DNA of 64,000 nucleotides from Leptotrichia sp. oral taxon 212. Lineage in GTDB: Bacteria; Fusobacteriota; Fusobacteriia; Fusobacteriales; Leptotrichiaceae. Every line of letters starts with the position of its first letter. Position 1 is the stretch's first letter. This document shows positions 24,590-38,660 of the stretch, piece by piece. The position numbers were made by a program, and so were the translations under genes. The notes under the pieces were generated by a model that was not told the DNA's origin, did no database searches, and worked only from the letters and a program-made list of their open reading frames with translations. The DNA lies in contig NZ_CP012410.1 of NCBI RefSeq assembly GCF_001274535.1, forward strand, positions 1,461,126-1,525,125, written 5' to 3'.

Positions 24590-27500
24590 TTATTTTACTT
24601 TAAACTTCCTTTTAAAATCATCGTAACTGTTTACCCAGTCAAATTCTATATTTTTAGAAACAGCTTCAAAGTGTAGTTTACCACATTTTATTTTTCTTTT
24701 CTCAACATCTGATAAGTCTTTTTCTTCCTTGCCTGCCTTTGTTTCAACTATAAAATAAATTCCTACATTATTTTCTTCATTTTCTAAAGAATTTCTATAG
24801 ACAACAGCCCAGTCAGGTGAATAGTTTCCATAAGGCGTGTCTATTACAAAGCCACCCTTTTTCAGTTTTGTAAATAGTAACACATTGTCATTATTTTCAA
24901 GCTTTTCTGCAAATTCTTTTTCTCCATCACTGTCAAGCTTATAATATTCATTTAAGCTGGTACTGTCCTTTTTAGCTTTAAACAGTCTTCTTTTATTATT
25001 CAGGTCTTCTTCGTTTATTTTATCCACTTCAAATATTTTTTCTCTTTCTGTTTCGTATCCGTCTATCACTTCATATTCAAAAACTTCTTCAGCTTTCATA
25101 TTTTTTAATTCTTCCAGTAATATCTCAGTGATATCCTCCAGTACATCCTGAATATTTAAAGCATCTCTCTTATTTTTCTCTAGTCCTCTTATTATTTTCA
25201 ATATTGCCAGTCGAGGCAACATTGTATGATACATAATGTAATTAGCTATTTCAAAATCATTTTTCTTTTCAGTGACAATGTCAGACAATTCGATATCTTT
25301 ACTTGCATCTTTTTCAAGCTTGAATTTTCCTGTATTATCGTATTCTCCTTTAGAATCTGTCAACTCAACTATTTTCTTCAAATCAAAGTTGCTTATATGT
25401 TTATTTATTTTATCTATACTGCTCGAAATATACTTTTCATTATCAATTTTACATTTATAGATAGCTTTCTTGCTAAGATTTTTCCCTAATTCTTCAAAAA
25501 TCTCCTTAAATTCCTTTTCGGAAATAAAACTTCTCTGTTTATTAATAATTGGCTCATTATCTCCGTTTGTTATTTCTATACGTTTTGTTCCTTTTTCTAC
25601 CATATATTTTACAAAATTTTCCATAATTTGTGAAGAATGTTCTTCCAATATTTCATCTGAAAATTTAATTTCCTTAATAGCTTCTGCTATTTTTTCAGTA
25701 TCTTTTAAAAGAATATTATTATTATCCATTATCTTATTATTTACCAGTTCCTGCTTTAAATTATCTGCCAGTTCAGAAGTAACTTTGGATTTAGGAATTC
25801 CTGATTTCTCAAGTGTAACTAAAATAATGTCTGATGTAACTTCATTTATATTTAGATTCCTATTGAAATCTTCCTGTAACATTCTTGAAAAATTTTCATA
25901 GCTGTCATTTGCAATTACAGTAAGTTCATTCACATTTCTGTCTAGACATCTGTTTCCTGTCACATCTACAGGAAGTCTGAGACCCCTACCTATTTCCTGC
26001 TTTTTGGCTATATCACTACTTCCATTTTTCAATGTACACAATGTAAATACATTTGGATTATCCCATCCTTCCCTGAGGGCGGAATGTGAAAAAATAAAGG
26101 CAAGAGGTTCATTAAATGAAATCAGCTCATCCTTTTTTTCCAGAATAAGCTCTATTCCCCTGTCTATATCTTCCTGTGATTTTGCCTTTATAGCACTTTC
26201 TCCTTTATCAGAATTCCAGTCATCTACTTCAACTTCATTTTTCTTTTTATCCAGTGCAAAATAACCTTCCCTTACTAAATTTACATTTTCATAATTTGGA
26301 AAATAATTTTTATATTTCTCAATTTTTTCCCTGTATTTTTCTATAGCCATCACATATTCTTCATCAAATATTTTCAGATATTCCCCTCTTCTGTCCTCTG
26401 CATCATTGTCACGCACTTTTTTAACTTCATCTATGAAAAATAATGTCAGTCCTTTTATTTTTCTTCCTTCATCTAAAATTTCAAACTGCTTTTCAAAATG
26501 ATTTTTTATTGCAAGCCTTATCTGAATACGGATAATTTCCTTATTTTCCAGCTTTTTGTTACTTTCTCCCAGTTCCAGCTCAATATCTTCATTACTGGAA
26601 GAAACTTTTAATGGTTTTACTTTATTTGGCTGTTCCGCAATAAACATATCCTTGTACTGCGATAATCCTCCAGACAGTTCATACAGTGAAACTCCATTTT
26701 CCACATCAAAACTTTTAAACCTGATACTTTCCCCCTGTACCTGAGAAAACATCTCAATTCTTGCCTTCAAATCCTTTGTAAAATGAGTATATCTGATATA
26801 TGGATAATCTTTAGAAATTACTCCATTTATAGTTTTTACCTGTATTTTTTTTACCAGATCCTTTTTATATGCTTCATAGGAATCCAGCTTATACACCTGA
26901 TTGTAGAGATTTTTATGTGTTGCAGAATAACGCAATGTAAATAATGGCTCCAGTTCATCTATTGCCTTTAATGATTGAGATTTTTTCTTTACTGTACCTT
27001 CTATCTTCTGCGGTTCATCAATCAATACAATAGGTCTTATAAATTTTATGTCATTCCATAAAATTCTACCATATTCATCATCCTTACGGATTTTAGTTGA
27101 ATCCCTGTTAAATGCCTGAATATTCAGAACACATATGCTTAAATCATTACTTTCTACAAAATTACTGCTCACTTTTCCTAGATTATTACTATCGTAAATA
27201 AAACTGTATTTTGACAAATCTACATTGTACAGTCTTTTAAAATGTTCTGTTAGCTGTTTTATAGATTTCTCCACGCCTTTACGGATTGCTATGGAAGGAA
27301 CTACAATCATAAATTTTTTGAAGCCATATTCCTTATACAGTTCCAATATTGTACGTAAATACACGTAAGTTTTTCCTGTTCCTGTTTCCATTTCAATAGT
27401 AAAATCCCTCTCATGATTTTTATACGAAATTTCATCTGTAAATAATCCATTTCCCAGCTGTACTTTCTTCAGATTTTGAAGAAGTTTCTCTCCTTTTACA

Positions 27501-27673
27501 ATATCTATATTTCTCACAGGATCTTTTTCTGTAATTCTTGTTTTTCTTATTTTTTCAGCATAAATACTACCTACCTCTTTTGGAAGTCCTCTGAAGAGTT
27601 CCACGACAGACTTTACTGCCTTTTTCTGATATTCCAAATTATCATCAAACTGAAATATTATTTTATTTGACAT
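24590..27673 (-). CDS. res: type III restriction enzyme, Res subunit
   Basis: This 1027-residue protein has the Res layout: a superfamily 2 helicase/translocase with ETGTGKT at 96-102 (Walker A), LIDEPQK at 217-223 (Walker B) and REGWDNPNVF...KQEIGRGLRLPVD (motifs V and VI), then a C-terminal PD-(D/E)xK nuclease with SPDWAVV and YFIVETKAGKE near residues 965-995. With Mod it would cut DNA at unmodified asymmetric sites after ATP-driven motion. The ATG at 27671-27673 follows AAAGGAG; an earlier in-frame codon is disfavoured. An intrinsic terminator lies about 25 nt upstream, and 3.8 kb of foreign-looking genes separate it from mod. Confidence 0.93.
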   Translation of the reverse strand: MSNKIIFQFDDNLEYQKKAVKSVVELFRGLPKEVGSIYAEKIRKTRITEKDPVRNIDIVKGEKLLQNLKKVQLGNGLFTDEISYKNHERDFTIEMETGTGKTYVYLRTILELYKEYGFKKFMIVVPSIAIRKGVEKSIKQLTEHFKRLYNVDLSKYSFIYDSNNLGKVSSNFVESNDLSICVLNIQAFNRDSTKIRKDDEYGRILWNDIKFIRPIVLIDEPQKIEGTVKKKSQSLKAIDELEPLFTLRYSATHKNLYNQVYKLDSYEAYKKDLVKKIQVKTINGVISKDYPYIRYTHFTKDLKARIEMFSQVQGESIRFKSFDVENGVSLYELSGGLSQYKDMFIAEQPNKVKPLKVSSSNEDIELELGESNKKLENKEIIRIQIRLAIKNHFEKQFEILDEGRKIKGLTLFFIDEVKKVRDNDAEDRRGEYLKIFDEEYVMAIEKYREKIEKYKNYFPNYENVNLVREGYFALDKKKNEVEVDDWNSDKGESAIKAKSQEDIDRGIELILEKKDELISFNEPLAFIFSHSALREGWDNPNVFTLCTLKNGSSDIAKKQEIGRGLRLPVDVTGNRCLDRNVNELTVIANDSYENFSRMLQEDFNRNLNINEVTSDIILVTLEKSGIPKSKVTSELADNLKQELVNNKIMDNNNILLKDTEKIAEAIKEIKFSDEILEEHSSQIMENFVKYMVEKGTKRIEITNGDNEPIINKQRSFISEKEFKEIFEELGKNLSKKAIYKCKIDNEKYISSSIDKINKHISNFDLKKIVELTDSKGEYDNTGKFKLEKDASKDIELSDIVTEKKNDFEIANYIMYHTMLPRLAILKIIRGLEKNKRDALNIQDVLEDITEILLEELKNMKAEEVFEYEVIDGYETEREKIFEVDKINEEDLNNKRRLFKAKKDSTSLNEYYKLDSDGEKEFAEKLENNDNVLLFTKLKKGGFVIDTPYGNYSPDWAVVYRNSLENEENNVGIYFIVETKAGKEEKDLSDVEKRKIKCGKLHFEAVSKNIEFDWVNSYDDFKRKFKVK

Positions 27674-27696
27674 TTCATTTTCTCCTTTTGTTCTGT

Positions 27697-27737
27697 AATA
27701 AAAAAGTCTCAATTATCTTTTTTGATAAAAGAGACTA
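27697..27737 (-). terminator. terminator just upstream of res
   Basis: On the minus strand AGTCTC pairs with GAGACT around an inner TTATC/GATAA stem and an A6 loop and is followed by TTTTTTATT. It closes the acetyltransferase gene cluster and lies so close to res that little room is left for a separate res promoter. Confidence 0.75.
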
Positions 27738-27752
27738 TTAAAATCATTATTT

Positions 27753-28355
27753 CTAAAAATTATCTAATCTTAGTATCATTGTTTTTAACTTATTTTCTGA
27801 ACTGAATTTTTTTATCAGGTTAAATCCATAATTTGAATAAAATCTTATCAGTGAACTGTTATCTTCACATTCCAGCCATAAATATTTGGTATTTATAATT
27901 TTTTTCACGATTAATAATAATTCGTGTGCCTGTGATATTATTTCATTACCTGTTATCATATTTTTATCAGAAATATTATAATTTTTTCCTATCTGTGCCA
28001 GCAAAAAACTGTTTACAACATAACTTCCGTCTTTCAATTTTCTTCCACTCTGTGAAAATCTTTTCTGCTGTGTCTTGCTAAGACTAAGAAAATTTTCTTT
28101 TTCAATAATTAAACTCTTATTTGCAAATGTAAAATACCCCAATATTTCCGTTCCCTCTTTATTGTAAATAATATGTGTCGCAGAAAGTGATTTTTTCTCA
28201 AAATCTATAGCTTTATTATGTAAAAAATCCTCAATACTATTTCTATCTCTACTTCTAAAAGTCTTTAAAATTTTTTCTTCTATAAAGTCATCGTCTTTCA
28301 ATTTTTCTCTTAATTTCTGCAACGATATAGTTTCACTCTTTTTTCTTATATCCAA
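27753..28355 (-). CDS. GNAT-fold acetyltransferase, possible toxin
   Basis: This 200-residue protein resembles GNAT acetyltransferases: an N-terminal part with EDFLHNKAIDFEKKSLSATHIIY, the strand EILGYFTFANKSL, then SFLLAQIGKNY, an acetyl-CoA-site-like helix around ISQAHELLLIVKKI, and WLECEDNSSLIRFYSNYGFNLIKKF at the end. It overlaps the preceding small gene by 23 bp, the arrangement of antitoxin-toxin pairs, and GNAT toxins that acetylate aminoacyl-tRNA are known. Target and toxicity are inferred. The start appears to be TTG. It is the last gene before the terminator upstream of res. Confidence 0.7.
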   Translation of the reverse strand: MDIRKKSETISLQKLREKLKDDDFIEEKILKTFRSRDRNSIEDFLHNKAIDFEKKSLSATHIIYNKEGTEILGYFTFANKSLIIEKENFLSLSKTQQKRFSQSGRKLKDGSYVVNSFLLAQIGKNYNISDKNMITGNEIISQAHELLLIVKKIINTKYLWLECEDNSSLIRFYSNYGFNLIKKFSSENKLKTMILRLDNF

Positions 28356-29716: not shown

Positions 29717-30204
29717 TTAAAAATCATTTAAAAATACTAATTCAACTTCATTTTTGAGTAACTCATCATAGAAATCATTAATTTTATGTGATTCTTTCTT
29801 ATATTCCCAAAACAACTCAGATTGGTAATACTTTCCATTTTTGGTAAGAGTATAATTATGATTCTTACAATATTGTTTTATCTCTTTTAAAATTTTATCA
29901 TTCTTTTTTGTAATAGAATATATAAAATATCTATAGAACCAAAATTGTTGTGCCATAACAGGTTGATGAGAATATCTATTGTTAGTTTCAATAAACAATT
30001 TATCTATTTTAGGTAGCAAATCTTCTAATGATTTTTCTATTCTATAAAATAATATTGTTGCTAAAGTTAAACAAAAATCATCACTTTCTATTGAAATTAT
30101 CTTTTGTAAATTTCCTTTATCAAATAAAATATTTGAATTAAATTCAATAGATAAAAGTAAAATTTGATAAAGTTCCTGATTATAGTTGTTTTTCAAATAA
30201 TAAT
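29717..30204 (-). CDS. C-terminal segment of the reverse transcriptase, separate frame
   Basis: From a TTG at 30194-30196 this frame gives 159 residues, rich in helices (ELYQILLLSIEFNSNILFDK, SHQPVMAQQFWFYRYFIYS) with no catalytic motif. The frame stays open upstream across the RT stop codon, and reading back by one base at the A8 tract (30208-30215) joins RT residue 430 to IDYYLKNNYNQEL. The fused product would be about 593 residues, the size of Abi-type and other defence RTs whose C-terminal half is helical. It may be made by -1 frameshifting or slippage, be a separate subunit, or result from a mutation. Confidence 0.65.
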
Positions 30205-31497
30205 CTATTTTTTTTGATACTCTATTTTATTATTACTGAAATATTCATTAACAATTTTTTCAGCATTTTCTCTCTTAAATCCTTTTCTTTTTAATGTTTC
30301 AAATAAATCAATAAATTTATTTGTTAATTTTGAATCCTTTAAAGAAGCATCTAAAATTTTTTCAAAAATATTAAAATTTGTTTTTGAAGAATAAAAACTA
30401 AATATTTCATTTATCTTATTATTTTTAGGATTTATTTTTTTTAAACCTGAAAAAATACATTTTATTGCTCCTTTATTACCTGATGCTTCTTCTGCAATAC
30501 AATAATCTATAAAGTTTTTAATTTTTTCAACCCATTTCTCTATCGTTAATTTTTTTTCAATATTATCAAAATAACCAAAAATTTTTGTTTTATCACTCTT
30601 GTTTAAAAAAGGAAAATTCTCAATTTGAGTCTTATTCTCATTAATCATTAGATTATGTTCTTTACAAATTTTTCTAAATATACTTAAAAATTCTATTTCT
30701 TCACTCTCAAATGAATATGGAAAACAAATATCATCAACGTATCTCGAATATCTAAATCCGTGTTCTTCTATTTTTTTATCAAAATAGCACATATATAGTT
30801 CAGACACTAATCTAGAAATTAAATTGCCTGTAGGAATTCCATATGTTTCATCATATTGACATTTTCTAATTAAAGTATCTAAACTATTTGAAAATCCATC
30901 TTTTTTATTACTTTTTGCATTAACTTTGCCATCAATCATCCAAGGAATACTATGTGTGTATAAAGTATGATAAAAATTTGATAAATCTAAATGCAATCTT
31001 CTTATTCCAGAATATAATAATTTTTGTCTTAACTCATCGGTATCCACAAATCCATAAAAATTAAAAAATTTAGAAGTCGAAAGCTTATTTTTTTCAAATA
31101 TTTTTATAAATTCCTCCTTATTTTTATTAACAAAAAATACTAATAATAAATAACTATAAAGATTGGGCAATTTATATAATCTCCTATTTGATATATTTTT
31201 GGGTATTGAAAAATATATCGGTTCTGTTGCTTTATAGTTATTAATTTTTTTATTATCATCTACGTTAAAAAACTTTTCTTTATCAATATCATTCATATTT
31301 TTAATAAAATTAGCAACTGCAGTCATATTAAAAATTCTTGAAAAAAAAGCATCTGCTGTTCCCTCTGATACTTCATATAAATACCTTTCATCTTTTATAC
31401 TATTTTTTTTCTTTATTGATACATCATAATACCCATATTTTATCAAAAAATCTATCTGAAAAATATGATTATAAATTTTCTTAATTTTATTTTCCAT
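30205..31497 (-). CDS. reverse transcriptase, defence-associated (Abi/UG type)
   Basis: This 430-residue RT has motif A RRLHLDLSNFYHTLYTHSI with Asp171, motif B GIPTGNLISRLVSELY at 220-235, motif C YSRYVDDICF with Asp255 and Asp256, and motif D-like INENKTQI at 285-292. The YTHSIPW block after motif A is what I associate with the unknown-group/Abi RTs linked to phage defence, not with retrons or group II introns. No maturase or endonuclease domain is present. It starts 14 nt after mod with a good AAGGAA site, so it should be cotranscribed with mod. Base composition is very AT-rich (9 G+C of 60 in 30301-30360). The exact subclass is unresolved. Confidence 0.85.
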   Translation of the reverse strand: MENKIKKIYNHIFQIDFLIKYGYYDVSIKKKNSIKDERYLYEVSEGTADAFFSRIFNMTAVANFIKNMNDIDKEKFFNVDDNKKINNYKATEPIYFSIPKNISNRRLYKLPNLYSYLLLVFFVNKNKEEFIKIFEKNKLSTSKFFNFYGFVDTDELRQKLLYSGIRRLHLDLSNFYHTLYTHSIPWMIDGKVNAKSNKKDGFSNSLDTLIRKCQYDETYGIPTGNLISRLVSELYMCYFDKKIEEHGFRYSRYVDDICFPYSFESEEIEFLSIFRKICKEHNLMINENKTQIENFPFLNKSDKTKIFGYFDNIEKKLTIEKWVEKIKNFIDYCIAEEASGNKGAIKCIFSGLKKINPKNNKINEIFSFYSSKTNFNIFEKILDASLKDSKLTNKFIDLFETLKRKGFKRENAEKIVNEYFSNNKIEYQKK

Positions 31498-31511: not shown

Positions 31512-33473
31512 TTAAATAAACTCAACCCTATAACTAACCTTACTCTCTCCAGAATTTCTCTCAATCAGACTACTTAACTTCCTAAAAGTCTCATCCTTCA
31601 ATGAAATATTATCCTTAAATGCAGAATCTCTAAATACAAATTTTATTGGTAACGGCTCTAATAAAGCTAATTTTTCCACCATTTGCTCTGTTATTTCTGT
31701 TTCAAGGCAAATCAAGTATGTACTTGCATACAGATAAGTTCTATTTCCAATATCTGTCAACACTTCCAGATTTTCTGACAAAGGAACATCATTCTGTCTT
31801 AACATTATTTCATAAACAATATCAATATCATTGCTTCCAAGCACAAAATCCAATGAATCAGGATCATCAAAAGAATACTGACCATCTTCATTAAAATTCT
31901 CCATGTCATACCATTTTATATTTGTATCATCCACTTTAAATGCTTTAAATCCAATATCTGGAACTTTTTTAGGCTCTTCTCCAAGTTTCAGATTTGAGTT
32001 ATATTCTTCTATTTCCTGTTTTATCTTTTCTCCGGCACGTCCGATTCTCTCTTTTCCAATTTCTGCAATATTTTTATATCCAGCCTTAAATGCTTCTGAT
32101 TTTTCATCAGTTATTTCAGGTAACTGAACCATTATATATTTTCTGTTTCCGTTATCTTCACTGTTTAACTGCATAACAGCATGAGCTGTTGTTGCTGAAC
32201 CTGAAAAAAAATCAAGTATAATGTCATTACAATTTGTACTATTATCCACAAGATGTTTCAATAATTCTTTTGGTTTCGGAGTATCGAATATTTTTTTATT
32301 AGAAAATACTTCTTTTACTTCATTAGTAGCTTTATTATTTAAATAGTCTTTATCTTTCAAAATACTTTTTAATCTTTCTCTTCTTCCCTTTTCAAAATAA
32401 TCTTTTATATAAATAGTTCCATTACTACTTGCATATAACTTATAACTTTCATTTTTTATTTTTTCTTTTCCCCAAGTCCATCTTCCTTCAGTTCCATCTG
32501 ATTTATAAGGATATCTTTCTTCTAGTCCTTCCTTATATTCCAAAAAAACTTCACCACTCTTCAAAGAATAATATAAAGGAAAATATAGTGTTGGAGCATC
32601 TTCTCTTCTACTTCCTTCACCTTTTTTCATTAAAATCCCATCCATTTTATATCTTCCATGATCATCTTTTTTATCAAATTTTTTTAAATATTCTAAACTT
32701 GGAGAAATTCCTTTAAATACAGCATTCTCTGTCTTTTGATAACAAAAAAGATAATCATGATTTAAAGAAAATCCTTTTTTATCTCCTAATCCATTCTTAC
32801 TTTTTTCTACAATACATTGTATCACAAAATTCTCTTCCCCAAAAATCTCATCACACAATCTCTTAAGATTAGCCTGCTCATTATCATCAATACTTATAAA
32901 TATAACTCCATCATCAGTCAGTAAATCTCTAGCCAGTTTCAATCTTGGATACATCATATTCAGCCAGTTTGCATGATATCTATTAGTTGACTTCTGATTT
33001 TTCTGCAGTTTTTCATTATTTTCTGATATTATTTCCTCTGCCTTGTCGCTCTCTTCCTTGTCCATTTTAAAAGTATCATTATAGACAAAATCATTTCCTG
33101 TATTGTAAGGTGGGTCAATATATATCATTTTTATTGAGTTGTAATAATTCTGTCTTAACAGTTTCAATACTTCCAGATTATCTCCTTCGATATATATATT
33201 TTCTGTTGTATCAGTATTTTTACTATCTTTTTCCACAAATTTCAATGTTTTATTTCCAATTCCCTGCTGCACTATTTTCTTTGCATTTTGTTTTCCAGCC
33301 CAATTCAGTTCGTATCTTTCATTTCCTACTTCTTCAAAATCTCCCAGCTCTTCCTTCAATGCCTTTACATCCAGCTGTCCATCCTTTACAGCAGATGGAA
33401 ATAATTGCTCCAGTGCTTTCAAATTGTCATTTACCACATTATTTATATCTCTTTTTATTTTATTATTTTTCAT
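31512..33473 (-). CDS. mod: type III DNA N6-adenine methyltransferase, Mod subunit
   Basis: This 653-residue beta-class methyltransferase has the catalytic motif IDPPYNTG (DPPY at 120-123) before the SAM motif DFFSGSATTAHAV (421 onwards), the order of type III Mod proteins. The stretch between about 215 and 400 should be the target-recognition domain; the site recognised cannot be read from sequence. GGAGG lies eight bases before ATG 33471-33473; a TTG four codons earlier is inside that site. No simple-sequence repeat of the kind that phase-varies mod genes was seen. The partner res lies 3.8 kb downstream, beyond the RT insert. Confidence 0.94.
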   Translation of the reverse strand: MKNNKIKRDINNVVNDNLKALEQLFPSAVKDGQLDVKALKEELGDFEEVGNERYELNWAGKQNAKKIVQQGIGNKTLKFVEKDSKNTDTTENIYIEGDNLEVLKLLRQNYYNSIKMIYIDPPYNTGNDFVYNDTFKMDKEESDKAEEIISENNEKLQKNQKSTNRYHANWLNMMYPRLKLARDLLTDDGVIFISIDDNEQANLKRLCDEIFGEENFVIQCIVEKSKNGLGDKKGFSLNHDYLFCYQKTENAVFKGISPSLEYLKKFDKKDDHGRYKMDGILMKKGEGSRREDAPTLYFPLYYSLKSGEVFLEYKEGLEERYPYKSDGTEGRWTWGKEKIKNESYKLYASSNGTIYIKDYFEKGRRERLKSILKDKDYLNNKATNEVKEVFSNKKIFDTPKPKELLKHLVDNSTNCNDIILDFFSGSATTAHAVMQLNSEDNGNRKYIMVQLPEITDEKSEAFKAGYKNIAEIGKERIGRAGEKIKQEIEEYNSNLKLGEEPKKVPDIGFKAFKVDDTNIKWYDMENFNEDGQYSFDDPDSLDFVLGSNDIDIVYEIMLRQNDVPLSENLEVLTDIGNRTYLYASTYLICLETEITEQMVEKLALLEPLPIKFVFRDSAFKDNISLKDETFRKLSSLIERNSGESKVSYRVEFI

Positions 33474-33489
33474 TTTTTCCTCCAAAATT

Positions 33490-33651: not shown

Positions 33652-34203
33652 TTATAAAATATTTCCTGATTTCTGATAATATTTTTGATTTTTTAAAATA
33701 TAATTTTTTATAAACATTTCAGAATAAAAATTAACCTTATTGGTCCGATTTAAAATTTTGGAGCAGTCTAATGCTCCTTCCACTTCCCTTTTTGCTGAAC
33801 TCGACATTGACAAGTCAAATATTTCAGTCATTACAGTGTCTGTAACTACTATTTCATTTCTGTCATTTTGATTTAGCCTTTTCAAAGCTAATGAATACAC
33901 TTCTTTTGAATTATCATAAAATCTTAATACACATGGAGATTTAATTGCTTCCTGATATAGATTGGCAAGAAATCCTGCCTTTTTTATATCGCTTATTTCA
34001 AATTCAAAATACTGAATTACTGTAAAAATATATCTTTCATCTTCTACACTTGGTATTTCTTCATCATTTATCATAGATTTTAATGTTACTAATTTTACAT
34101 ATTCCTTTATTTTCTTTTTTTCATCAGATTTAAATTCCTTCAGAATAAGATTCTTCAATTTTATTTCCTGATTTACTTCATATCTTTCCGGCATATTTAT
34201 CAT
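33652..34203 (-). CDS. DUF4391 family protein
   Basis: This 183-residue soluble protein follows the helicase stop codon with no spacer (an alternative ATG lies nine bases further). PERYEVNQEIKLKNLILKEF, IKEYVKLVTLKSMIN and CVLRFYDNSKEVYSLALKRL fit the DUF4391 pattern as I know it. Genes of this family are repeatedly found between a helicase gene and a type III mod gene, which suggests an accessory role in that defence operon. No catalytic motif is visible and the molecular function is unknown. Confidence 0.7.
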   Translation of the reverse strand: MINMPERYEVNQEIKLKNLILKEFKSDEKKKIKEYVKLVTLKSMINDEEIPSVEDERYIFTVIQYFEFEISDIKKAGFLANLYQEAIKSPCVLRFYDNSKEVYSLALKRLNQNDRNEIVVTDTVMTEIFDLSMSSSAKREVEGALDCSKILNRTNKVNFYSEMFIKNYILKNQKYYQKSGNIL

Positions 34204-37200
34204 CTAACCCACCACCAGAAAAGAAATTAATTCGAAGTCATCAATCGTATCATTCTTAAAATTATTATTAAATCCTGAAAAATCAAACACTGTCTGAACA
34301 GCCTTTTCTTCCTCTTCACCTTTTATACTGTTTACCGCAGTATTAAGCAATTCTGAATAAAATCCCATTTTCGTAGCATTTTTCGTATCTTTAAAAAATT
34401 CCTTTAAAACTTTTTCCTGAACTTCATTTTTCTCATAGCATAGCTGTCTGAAAAGTTTTATAACTTCCCTTGCCTGACTGTTTTTAAATAAAATTTCTTT
34501 ATTGTTATCCACAAAAATCAGGTAATAGGGATAAAGGGAACTGTCATTCTTAGGTTTAGCATTATTTTTACTATGTTTAAAGCAGAACAGCACTCCCTTC
34601 TGTTCACCTTCAGTTACAGAATAAATTCCTTTAGGTATTTTGTTTATTTCCTTATGATTATTCACATAATTTGAAAGTTCATACAGATATTCGTTCATAT
34701 TAAGGTCTGTCAATGAAATATTTTCATTTGTATCTTCTATATCTATCACTTCATCCTTCAGTTTTTCCAGCTGTCTTTTCCTAAAGTTAAAATCATTCAT
34801 TTCAGGATTAAGCATATCTTCATCCCCAGTAGAAGCGATATTTAATGTTGTCATTTTCCCTTTTACTCTTCTCTCCAAGTCCAAATATTCATTCAGATCT
34901 GCATTCGGAAAGAAATTAATCATCTGTATTTTGTCATTTCTACTTCCTATTCTGTCCACTCTTCCAAATCTCTGAATAAGCGACACAGGATTCCACTGAA
35001 TATCAAAGTTTATTACAGTGTCACAGTCCTGTAAATTCTGCCCTTCTGAAATACAGTCTGTTCCCACTATAATATCTATCTGTTCTTCCTGTGGGATTTC
35101 AATTTTCATTTTGGACTTTGGTGAAAAAGCACTCAGAATACTATGAAAGTCCTCTCTTACTTTTTTATTTGAAGTTTTCACTCCTTTACCTGTAACACTT
35201 GCTATATTAATATCTTTACCAGCGAATTTTTTTAACAGCTCAGAATAGATATAGTTTGCAGTATCAGCAAATGCTGTAAAAATAAGTATTTTTCTATTTC
35301 CTTCATTATATGGTGTATTTTCAACCTTATTTTCCACAATCTTTTCCAGTTCATGAATCTTGTTATCTCTATCTTCTTTCAATAAAATCAATGTTTCATC
35401 ATATATTTTTTTTACAATATCTCTATCATTATACAGCTCCTCAAGATAGGCATTTATTCTCAAATCTTCTACCTTTATTTCATACTTACTTCTTTCAATA
35501 TAGATTTCATCTTCATTTTCCACATCAAGCTCTTCTTCAATCTGCTGTCCTCTCTGTAAGTTATCTATTGTCTTATCAATATTTTCAATCAGTCTTTTCA
35601 ACGTTTCAGAAAAAGAATAAACAGAACTTTCGAGCCTTTTAAATAAGTTCACCCTATGCAGATAAATAAGCCCTTTTGATTGTGTTTCAAAATCCAGTTT
35701 TCCTCCCCTGTTACCTGATAATTTATATTTCTCAATATAATAAGCCAATTTTTCACTTTTTATAAATTTAGTTGGCGTATATACTGATAAATTCAATTCT
35801 TCCAGAAGAGAATTAGTACCTTTAAAGTCTAACAGTTTACCCTCACTGTCAATTTCAGGATGATAAGTTATCGGTTTATTTTTTTGCGGGAATTTCCCTA
35901 TATTCTTTGTTCCGTAATAATTTGTAATATGCTTTCTACTTCTTGATATTGTCATCATTTCCAGCAGTTTATAGAAATCTGATGGCAAGTTATCCAGTAA
36001 CTCATCTTTTTTCTGGCTTCCTTCTTTTTCCCAGTCATTTATAACTTGCGTTGCCTTTTTCAGTATGTATCCAACACTTGAAATTCCTTCTTCATTAAAA
36101 GCACTGTCATCATCCCCTGTTATAATGGAAATCTGATTTTTCAAGTCCACAAGACTATTATTTACTGGTGTTGCTGACAACAAAAGTACTTTCGTATTTT
36201 TCCCATTTTTTATTACATTATGAAGCAGTTTAAAATATCTATTCATTATTAATTCATCATTTTCATCATATTTTGCAATTCTATTTCTGAAATTATGCGA
36301 TTCATCAATAACTACCAAATCAAATTTTGACCAGTCAAATCTGCTCAATTCATATCCTGATTTTGATTCTCCCTTAGTTCTCGATAAATCCGTATGAAAC
36401 ATAATTTTGTAATTAAACATTTCATCCAAAAAGCTATCTTTATAACTTCCAGTAAAAGAACGCCAGTTATCATAAAGTTTTGCCGGTGTAAGAACTAATA
36501 CATTATCATTTCTTATTTCGAAATACTTGATTACTGCCAAAGCTTCAAAAGTCTTTCCTAATCCCACTGAATCAGCAATTATACATCCTCCATATTTCTG
36601 TAATTTCTGTATAGCTGAAACAACACAGTCCTTCTGAAAATCAAAAAGTGAATTCCATATTTCAGTCTTTTTAAATTTATCACTATCTTTTTCAAATCTC
36701 TCAACTCCACTGTCCAGCTTATCTCCAAAAAGTTCATTTAACGTGAAGTAATACAAAAATTCAGGATTATAATTTTTATAAACAAATTCAAGGCTTTCTA
36801 ATAATTCCTGTTTATAATCCTGTGTTACATCATCATTATTCCAAATTTCATCATATATTCTCGACATGTCAAGTATCTGGGATTTTTCTGTTTCTCCTTT
36901 TATTGTTGTATCAAAATCATAGCGATTTGTCCTTTTTTCGTATATTTCAAGTGATGATGTTCCCTGAATCATAAAATCATCATCAATTATAAGAATATTC
37001 CCGTTTACTTTCTGATATGGCTTTACTTTTCTGACATTTATATTGTTTTTTATAAAATCATACATAGCTTTTGCCCTAGCAAAATGCTTTAACTTATTCT
37101 TTTCCTTTATATCATATGAATTGTACAGAATATCATTAGGAGTCATTTCAAACTCTCTTGATATTTCATTATTTTCAGGAATAAATTTCGTGTCTCTTAT

Positions 37201-37377
37201 AATAAAATTTATTTCCTTTACATTTTTTAAGTTTTTTTCTAATGCTGTAAAAACTGATATTGTTAGCTTGTCATTAATGATATTGACTACAGCATTTTCT
37301 TTTTCTGCCAAAACTTCATTTATCTTTTCTATAAATTTTTTTGCTGAATTTCCCATTTTCTTCAATATCCTTTTCAT
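34204..37377 (-). CDS. SNF2-like helicase with degenerate PLD-like N terminus
   Basis: This 1057-residue protein has an N-terminal domain (1-230) with an ILIIDDDFMIQGTSSLE strand like the second half of phospholipase D-like domains but no HKD motif. A superfamily 2 helicase follows: CIIADSVGLGKT ending at 276 (Walker A), VVIDESHNFRN at 356-366 (DESH box), LLLSATPVNNS (motif III) and IVGTDCISEGQNLQDC...LIQRFGRVDRIGS (motifs V-VI). A helical insert separates the two helicase halves. It is the first gene of the operon with DUF4391, mod and formerly res. A DNA-translocating sensor for defence is inferred. The ATG at 37377 and one at 37356 are both possible. Confidence 0.88.
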   Translation of the reverse strand: MKRILKKMGNSAKKFIEKINEVLAEKENAVVNIINDKLTISVFTALEKNLKNVKEINFIIRDTKFIPENNEISREFEMTPNDILYNSYDIKEKNKLKHFARAKAMYDFIKNNINVRKVKPYQKVNGNILIIDDDFMIQGTSSLEIYEKRTNRYDFDTTIKGETEKSQILDMSRIYDEIWNNDDVTQDYKQELLESLEFVYKNYNPEFLYYFTLNELFGDKLDSGVERFEKDSDKFKKTEIWNSLFDFQKDCVVSAIQKLQKYGGCIIADSVGLGKTFEALAVIKYFEIRNDNVLVLTPAKLYDNWRSFTGSYKDSFLDEMFNYKIMFHTDLSRTKGESKSGYELSRFDWSKFDLVVIDESHNFRNRIAKYDENDELIMNRYFKLLHNVIKNGKNTKVLLLSATPVNNSLVDLKNQISIITGDDDSAFNEEGISSVGYILKKATQVINDWEKEGSQKKDELLDNLPSDFYKLLEMMTISRSRKHITNYYGTKNIGKFPQKNKPITYHPEIDSEGKLLDFKGTNSLLEELNLSVYTPTKFIKSEKLAYYIEKYKLSGNRGGKLDFETQSKGLIYLHRVNLFKRLESSVYSFSETLKRLIENIDKTIDNLQRGQQIEEELDVENEDEIYIERSKYEIKVEDLRINAYLEELYNDRDIVKKIYDETLILLKEDRDNKIHELEKIVENKVENTPYNEGNRKILIFTAFADTANYIYSELLKKFAGKDINIASVTGKGVKTSNKKVREDFHSILSAFSPKSKMKIEIPQEEQIDIIVGTDCISEGQNLQDCDTVINFDIQWNPVSLIQRFGRVDRIGSRNDKIQMINFFPNADLNEYLDLERRVKGKMTTLNIASTGDEDMLNPEMNDFNFRKRQLEKLKDEVIDIEDTNENISLTDLNMNEYLYELSNYVNNHKEINKIPKGIYSVTEGEQKGVLFCFKHSKNNAKPKNDSSLYPYYLIFVDNNKEILFKNSQAREVIKLFRQLCYEKNEVQEKVLKEFFKDTKNATKMGFYSELLNTAVNSIKGEEEEKAVQTVFDFSGFNNNFKNDTIDDFELISFLVVG

Positions 37378-37418
37378 TTATAGTCTTTACAACCTCTATT
37401 AACTTTCCCTCTTTCAGA

Positions 37419-37441
37419 ATTAAGCTGGATGCTTAATTTTA
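37419..37441. repeat. left inverted repeat of the promoter switch
   Basis: This 23-bp sequence is the exact reverse complement of 37568-37590. Inside it lies a dyad, ATTAAGC-TGGAT-GCTTAAT, the shape of a tyrosine recombinase core with 7-bp binding arms and a 5-nt asymmetric spacer. It begins 42 bp upstream of the helicase ATG. Confidence 0.9.
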
Positions 37442-37519
37442 CGGAATATTGAAACGGCATAAAAAAAGGAAAATGACTAAAAAATTATTGAAATATTTTA
37501 GCCATATTTAAACAATCTA

Positions 37520-37528
37520 TGGTATAAT
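37520..37528 (+). promoter_or_regulatory. extended -10 promoter inside the invertible segment
   Basis: TGGTATAAT matches the extended -10 consensus TGnTATAAT. The -35 region is weak, as expected for extended -10 promoters. Transcription would begin near 37535 and run through the right repeat to the recombinase gene. Confidence 0.75.
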
Positions 37529-37567
37529 ATATTAGAATTTAATTTGAAAAAAGGATTTTAATGAAAT

Positions 37568-37590
37568 TAAAATTAAGCATCCAGCTTAAT
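37568..37590. repeat. right inverted repeat of the promoter switch
   Basis: This is the exact 23-bp reverse complement of 37419-37441, with the spacer reading ATCCA in the plus direction. Opposite spacer orientation is what a recombinase needs to invert, and not delete, the segment between. Confidence 0.9.
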
Positions 37591-37607: not shown

Positions 37608-37653
37608 CTCCCTATAAATATAGTAAAATTAAGAAAAACTAATTTACAGGGAG
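37608..37653 (+). promoter_or_regulatory. stem-loop covering the recombinase ribosome binding site
   Basis: CTCCCTATAAAT (37608-37619) can pair with ATTTACAGGGAG (37642-37653) with one mismatch in 12. The right arm includes the GGGAG of the ribosome site of the recombinase gene, so folding would limit its translation. It is also T-poor after the stem, so it is not a terminator. Confidence 0.55.
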
Positions 37654-37661
37654 GAAAAAAT

Positions 37662-38660
37662 ATGAAAACCAATACTAATCGTAGAAAAAACATTAAATTT
37701 TCAGAATGGATTGATATCTGGCTACAAAACGAAAGACCTTTTATAAAGGAATCTACTTATGCAACATACACAAATATTATTGAAAATCATATAAAATCAT
37801 CTTTAGGCACTAAAAATATAAACCATATCCAAAATAATGACTTACAAAATATGATATTTAAAAAATTAAATTCAGGAAAGCTAAATAACAGAAAGGGGCT
37901 ATCACTAAAAACTGTAAGGGATATTATGACCGTTACTAGATCCTGTCTAAATTCTGCAATGAAAAAAGGAATCATTAAAAGAAAAGTTTTTGAATATAAA
38001 TTTCCTAAAAATATGACAGGTAAAAAGATAAAAATTTTTACTCATACTGAACAGTCCAAACTTTTTGAGTACATAATTTCAAATCTGGATGAAAAATCTC
38101 TCGGAATTCTCATTTCCTTACTGTGCGGTTTAAGAATCGGAGAAATATGTGGCTTAAAATGGTGTGATATCGATTTTAAAAACGAAATGTTATCTGTAAA
38201 CAGGACTATTCAAAGAATTTATATTAAAAAACCTCTTTTAAGAGAAACTAGAATAGTCATTTCTTCTCCAAAGACATCTTCTTCATATAGAAGTATTCCC
38301 CTTAGCAAACATCTAATAAAAATAATGAAAAAATTTCAGAAAGAAGATACCTTTTACCTTATCTCAGGTAACAAAAATTTTATTGAACCCAGAATATACA
38401 GAAAATACTTCTATTCAATACTTTCATCCTTAAATATTTCAAAACTTCCATTTCATTCTTTAAGACACACTTTCGCAACGCAGGCCATTGAACTGGGAAC
38501 TGATTATAAGACTGTTTCTGAAATTTTAGGGCACTCCTCCGTAAATACAACCTTAAATTTATATGTCCATCCAAAAATGGAATACAAGAAAAAATGTCTG
38601 AGCCTTATTTATCAGGAACTTTCTTCTTCATCTAAAAAAATAAAACATAAGACTCCTTAA
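37662..38660 (+). CDS. tyrosine recombinase (invertase candidate)
   Basis: This 332-residue integrase-type recombinase has an N-terminal SAM-like DNA-binding domain (about 12-105) and a complete catalytic domain: Arg158 (CGLRIGEICGLKW), Lys204, His265 and Arg268 (FHSLRHTFA), His291 (LGHSSVNTT) and the nucleophile Tyr301 (LYVHP). It follows the inverted-repeat element directly and shows no phage genes, excisionase or flanking tRNA, so inversion of the adjacent promoter is more likely than prophage integration. Expression would come from the promoter inside the segment in the present orientation. Confidence 0.88.
   Translation: MKTNTNRRKNIKFSEWIDIWLQNERPFIKESTYATYTNIIENHIKSSLGTKNINHIQNNDLQNMIFKKLNSGKLNNRKGLSLKTVRDIMTVTRSCLNSAMKKGIIKRKVFEYKFPKNMTGKKIKIFTHTEQSKLFEYIISNLDEKSLGILISLLCGLRIGEICGLKWCDIDFKNEMLSVNRTIQRIYIKKPLLRETRIVISSPKTSSSYRSIPLSKHLIKIMKKFQKEDTFYLISGNKNFIEPRIYRKYFYSILSSLNISKLPFHSLRHTFATQAIELGTDYKTVSEILGHSSVNTTLNLYVHPKMEYKKKCLSLIYQELSSSSKKIKHKTP

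Follow-up and report, generated by a model that had tools for sequence, protein, structure and literature searches.

This locus bears on the question of why costly defence systems are retained by bacteria and of how their populations hedge between defended and undefended cells. In a 64,000-nucleotide stretch of DNA from Leptotrichia sp. oral taxon 212 (the window), a leftward defence operon and a rightward tyrosine recombinase gene are separated by a short segment bounded by inverted repeats (Table 1). Judging from the DNA and from the genomes of relatives, we consider it very probable that this segment carries a promoter, that the adjacent recombinase flips it at the 23-bp repeats, and that the defence operon is switched in this way. 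Promoters that invert next to a recombinase gene are well established, in most cases for surface structures (PMC11892184, PMC11868660). Restriction-modification (RM) systems are also known to vary, either through inverted specificity genes or through slipping repeats, and Pgl/BREX varies through a G tract within pglX (PMC4365076, PMC9122589); promoter exchange by recombination in RM systems is touched on in general terms in one review (PMC12707154). Within the partial coverage of our literature search, no invertible promoter has been described upstream of BREX or of this helicase/type III operon, nor a portable one shared by several defence systems of unrelated kinds.

Table 1. Features of the candidate switch and of its flanking genes (window coordinates)
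Feature	Coordinates	Strand	Remarks
Whole candidate switch segment	37419-37590		172 bp
Left inverted repeat (IRL)	37419..37441	+	23 bp, 7/5/7 dyad inside; probable recombinase core site
Invertible spacer (candidate)	37442..37567	.	126 bp
Weak AT-rich hairpin, then U-rich stretch	37473..37505	-	z = -2.5
Extended -10 promoter TGGTATAAT	37520..37528	+	predicted by consensus match; now faces recombinase
Right inverted repeat (IRR)	37568..37590	-	perfect IRL copy, opposite orientation
Recombinase 5' leader hairpin	37609..37653	+	CUCCCU pairs with ribosome-binding site AGGGAG; z = -4.0 in the window
Tyrosine recombinase, putative invertase	37662..38660	+	332 aa; intact ORF, PF00589 + PF14659
SNF2/HKD helicase (PADLOC C3a139), first gene of operon	34204..37356	-	start corrected
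DUF4391 protein	33652..34203	-	
Type III RM methyltransferase (Mod)	31512..33485	-	657 aa; PADLOC MTase_III 1e-178
AbiK-like defence reverse transcriptase (RT)	29717..31497	-	two ORFs, 30205-31497 + 29717-30196
Type III restriction endonuclease (Res), distal in defence cluster	24590..27712	-	PADLOC REase_III 2.5e-187

The repeats, their spacing and the dyad of 7 bp, 5 nt and 7 bp within each had been proposed in an earlier, sequence-only reading of the locus, and their coordinates and identity were reproduced: the arms, ATTAAGCTGGATGCTTAATTTTA and its reverse complement, match perfectly over 23 bp, and both contain ATTAAGC-TGGAT-GCTTAAT. The pair occurs once in the 2.44-Mb genome, and its length is far above chance expectation, the runner-up among spaced perfect inverted repeats of the 64-kb window measuring 15 bp and those in 100 first-order shuffles reaching at most 17 bp. 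The crossover region of Tn1549/Tn916-type integrases is short, and the 5-nt centre of the dyad would suit it. Each arm could also be taken as a stem-loop followed by a U-rich stretch, and each does fold separately (-5.7 and -7.6 kcal/mol), as paired terminators or hairpins bounding two divergent transcription units would do with no inversion taking place; we regard this as extremely improbable, since a scan gave no terminator-like site, the identity of the arms runs through the loop and past the stem, and in the family at large the arms differ in sequence yet stay inverted pairs by the recombinase, while the segment itself occurs inverted in other species. As for the hairpin on the minus strand within the spacer, we can only speculate that it acts as an insulator against leftward transcription when the operon is off. 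The viral contigs searched for the window's repeat contained no match; a looser pattern of the Leptotrichia type gave 20 matches there, at chance level and none of them switch-like, and was discarded.

The predicted extended -10 promoter was likewise located inside the spacer on the plus strand, with a weak -35, and its -10 box is kept at eight of eight related loci (TGGTATAAT at seven, TGATATAAT at one). Inversion would place the box near 37481-37486 on the minus strand, facing the helicase gene. On the other side, the complete recombinase gene described earlier begins 71 bp past the right arm and retains the core-binding and catalytic domains (E = 5e-25 for PF00589), with the R-K-H-R-H-Y set (R158, K204, H265/R268, H291 and Y301) invariant across the 12 members of the family alignment. 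That the nearest solved structure to this recombinase family is Tn1549 Int (6emy, E = 2.7e-26), and that modules of this kind occur at various chromosomal sites and carry various cargo, may suggest a mobile element whose attachment sites are the repeats and whose integrase is the recombinase, the promoter layout being incidental. This we hold to be most unlikely, because the repeats are inverted rather than direct and lie 126 bp apart, which argues for inversion and not excision, because no other mobile-element genes lie between them, and because the arm-binding domain of ICE integrases has been lost from the recombinase (no Pfam match to it). The same loss, together with its putative role as an invertase on two inverted sites, would distinguish the window's enzyme from its Tn1549/Tn916-type relatives. 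Its 5' leader is predicted to fold over the ribosome-binding site, as do the leaders in genomes G025, G032 and G011 with weaker z (-0.9 to -3.7), and such a fold may hold recombinase levels down.

With respect to the operon itself, the parts named by the sequence-only reading (type III restriction, helicase and RT) are all present, but the order has to be amended to SNF2/HKD helicase, DUF4391, Mod, a split AbiK-like RT, small genes and Res. That reading had also begun the helicase gene 41 bp from the left repeat; the homologues in G011, G017, G024 and G010 begin M(G/E)NSAKKF, and the start is therefore probably Met8 at 37356, not 37377, leaving a leader of about 62 bp. Both Mod and Res of the type III system are present and no frame break was seen in the Mod ORF, which sets the locus apart from phasevarions of the slippage type; the candidate control element found here is promoter inversion, not repeat slippage in mod. 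Separately, an A8 run (30208-30215) breaks the frame of the AbiK-like RT, and the two resulting ORFs match successive stretches of the PADLOC AbiK model. The break may reflect slippage, transcriptional frameshifting, decay or a sequencing error, and the run might add another level of phase variation.

Recombinases about 50-56% identical to that of the window were found, among the genomes searched, only in the same bacterial family, and the pairing of recombinase and repeats, intact and adjoining in the window, is seen again in three relatives that share the layout, each with a segment of its own. In G025 the candidate switch fronts a BREX operon (brxA-brxB-brxC-pglX; repeats 22 bp, spacer 365 bp), in G032 a type I RM system (HsdM-HsdS-HsdR; repeats about 18 bp, spacer 386) and in G011 a helicase/DUF4391/Mod/Res operon whose helicase, DUF4391 protein and Res are 95%, 92% and 81% identical to those of the window. 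Arm sequences vary across the family while the inverted pairing beside the recombinase is kept, and G011 carries a G-to-A change (GTTTGTTAC to GTTTATTAC) in each of its two arms, as arms that remain matched should. The 92% nucleotide identity between the operons of the window and G011 ends at 37416, 2 bp outside the left repeat; past this point the two segments, their promoter excepted, are unrelated, and identity on the recombinase side stands at 64%. Furthermore, G032 and G011 share one chromosomal site, as judged by the right-hand genes, and have near-identical switches with different defence cargo. Taken together, this junction and this difference in cargo indicate that switch and cargo are modules that evolve separately and meet at the repeat, and sequence comparison lends good support to the view that an inverton-type phase switch is used interchangeably to control defence systems of unrelated kinds. 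One small portable switch would then precede three or more unrelated defence systems within a single bacterial family.

A variant in G015 (L041:8556-10041) has 29-bp inverted repeats that enclose the recombinase together with a consensus promoter (TTGACA-16-TATAAT, L041:9968-9995), which is aimed at a type I HsdR-HsdM-HsdS operon and is thus assembled in the ON state. A scan of genome contigs gave only clostridial recombinases 34% identical, with no convincing repeats. The helicase operon also occurs in the sister family (39-42% helicase identity), where no recombinase accompanies it, the sequence upstream is ordinary and, with one exception, no such repeats were found; the switch therefore seems to have been added in the family to which the window belongs.

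If the segment inverts, both orientations might be found in related genomes, a comparison that the sequence-only reading had put forward and that we made between species with one genome per species. Homologous loci do show both (G025/G021, G011/G017 and the window/G010), and the breakpoints coincide with the repeats. Once inverted in silico, the G025 segment was colinear with the BREX locus of G021 over 465 bp at 88.6%, as opposed to three fragments when left uninverted; in G021 the 30-bp flank upstream of the recombinase (100%) is in the expected place and is followed by a recombinase remnant, and brxA, B and C of the two genomes are 93-96% identical. Similarly, the G011 segment fits G017, G024 and G010 better when inverted, upstream of the same helicase operon, and the inverted window segment aligned over 200 bp, vs. 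110 uninverted, with the promoter region before the helicase operon of G010. At G017 the promoter faces into the operon and only a C-terminal remnant of the recombinase is left, while at G024 and G010 (94% helicase identity) the promoter also faces in and there is no recombinase; a repeat-like arm at these two loci, AATTAAGCTAATAACTTAATT, resembles that of the window, and a second arm was not found at either. Inversion of a promoter segment between repeats next to a tyrosine recombinase is hence supported by the BREX pair (G025 vs. G021) and by the helicase-operon loci (the window and G011 vs. G017, G024 and G010).

Among loci of the window-type layout, the four that bear a recombinase are all OFF, with the promoter facing the recombinase, and the four that have none are all ON, with the promoter facing the defence operon; C-terminal recombinase remnants persist at two of the latter. 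Across these eight loci the association of recombinase presence with orientation gave p = 0.029 by Fisher's exact test, a value that needs caution because the loci are not all independent, G024/G010 and G032/G011 each sharing ancestry. The earlier view that the present orientation puts the promoter on the recombinase and leaves the defence operon off gains support from the recombinase-less loci, all of which aim the -10 box at the defence operon. One and the same operon therefore exists naturally in an OFF form in some species and in an ON form in their sister species. That every recombinase-bearing assembly was found in a single orientation (4/4) would also fit a fossil switch, one that inverted in the family's past and is now fixed OFF or cryptic in this copy. 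We think this improbable for the window, where the two arms still match perfectly along all 23 bp and the recombinase has an unbroken ORF that keeps the invariant catalytic residues, in contrast to the decayed loci (G017, G021, G024 and G010) with their diverged arms and lost recombinase.

Returning to an active switch, we propose that the recombinase catalyses inversion at the two arms and that transcription would follow the -10 box. In the assembled orientation, the promoter would transcribe the recombinase and the defence operon would have no promoter in the segment; after inversion, the promoter would read across IRL, then through the conserved leader, into helicase, DUF4391, Mod, AbiK and Res, and would no longer serve the recombinase. 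We identified no other recombinase promoter, so ON should be the stabler state, made sticky by the loss of the recombinase's own promoter, a feedback that fits the observed pattern and would explain the loss of recombinase from ON loci. A recombinase silent in ON also means that return to OFF needs another source of the enzyme, and none was found. We tentatively extend this to a self-limiting defence fuse, to which we give somewhat less than even credence: the recombinase would be made in OFF only, a flip to ON would silence it and lock defence on heritably, lineages staying ON would then lose the recombinase, and whole BREX, type I and SNF2/type III operons would be swapped behind such switches, the repeats forming the junctions. 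Whether phage defence is bet-hedged, and whether hedging is lost once a switch locks ON, would be directly testable at these loci, and a defence operon in a genome should not be equated with one that is expressed.

Compared with known invertons (fimS-FimB/E, Bacteroides Mpi/capsule promoters and gut invertons; PMC11892184, PMC11868660), the candidate switch is alike in having a short promoter segment, inverted repeats and a neighbouring tyrosine recombinase and operon, but those invertons control surface structures whereas this one would control anti-phage systems, and its module recurs before unrelated ones. It also differs in that one orientation places the recombinase itself downstream of the promoter that inverts; in the hCom2 survey, recombinases were generally not regulatable by their own invertons, with one possible exception (PMC11892184). 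Inversion-variable RM systems (Mycoplasma pulmonis hsd; Bacteroides and pneumococcal hsdS shufflons; PMC11892184, PMC5729914) likewise alter RM activity by DNA inversion; they flip specificity or coding segments, while the window's switch would flip a stand-alone promoter and leave the genes untouched. Phasevarions based on type III Mod slippage and the pglX G tract (PMC11868660, PMC4365076, PMC9122589) also turn a type III or BREX-type system ON and OFF, but by slippage in a coding tract rather than by the promoter inversion proposed here, through a dedicated recombinase.

Several observations lie beside this argument. A sister clade of the recombinase (L038, L039, L043-L047) adjoins polysaccharide genes (bacterial sugar transferase), with degenerate inverted repeats around the recombinase gene itself at several loci and clear 18-bp arms in L046; we did not include these EPS-linked recombinases in the same architecture, since the likely EPS promoter lies outside the repeats. 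A dispersed repeat (query 83-313), present in tens of copies per Leptotrichia genome and inserted within the invertible segment of G025, G032, G011 and G021 (e.g. L040:7552-7782), takes up much of the Leptotrichia switch; it was rejected as a part of the switch because it is an insertion and the window does not have it. Between the BREX loci of G025 (L063:10054-13770) and G021 (L112:491-4276), pglX is only 56% identical despite the conservation of brxA-C, which looks as if the specificity gene had been replaced. Finally, a small 200-aa gene of no recognised family in the window's defence cluster (27753-28355) is 95.5% identical to L063:6796-7398 inside the BREX cluster of G025, within a region of 872 bp at 93.7% nucleotide identity, and this near-identity suggests movement between defence islands.
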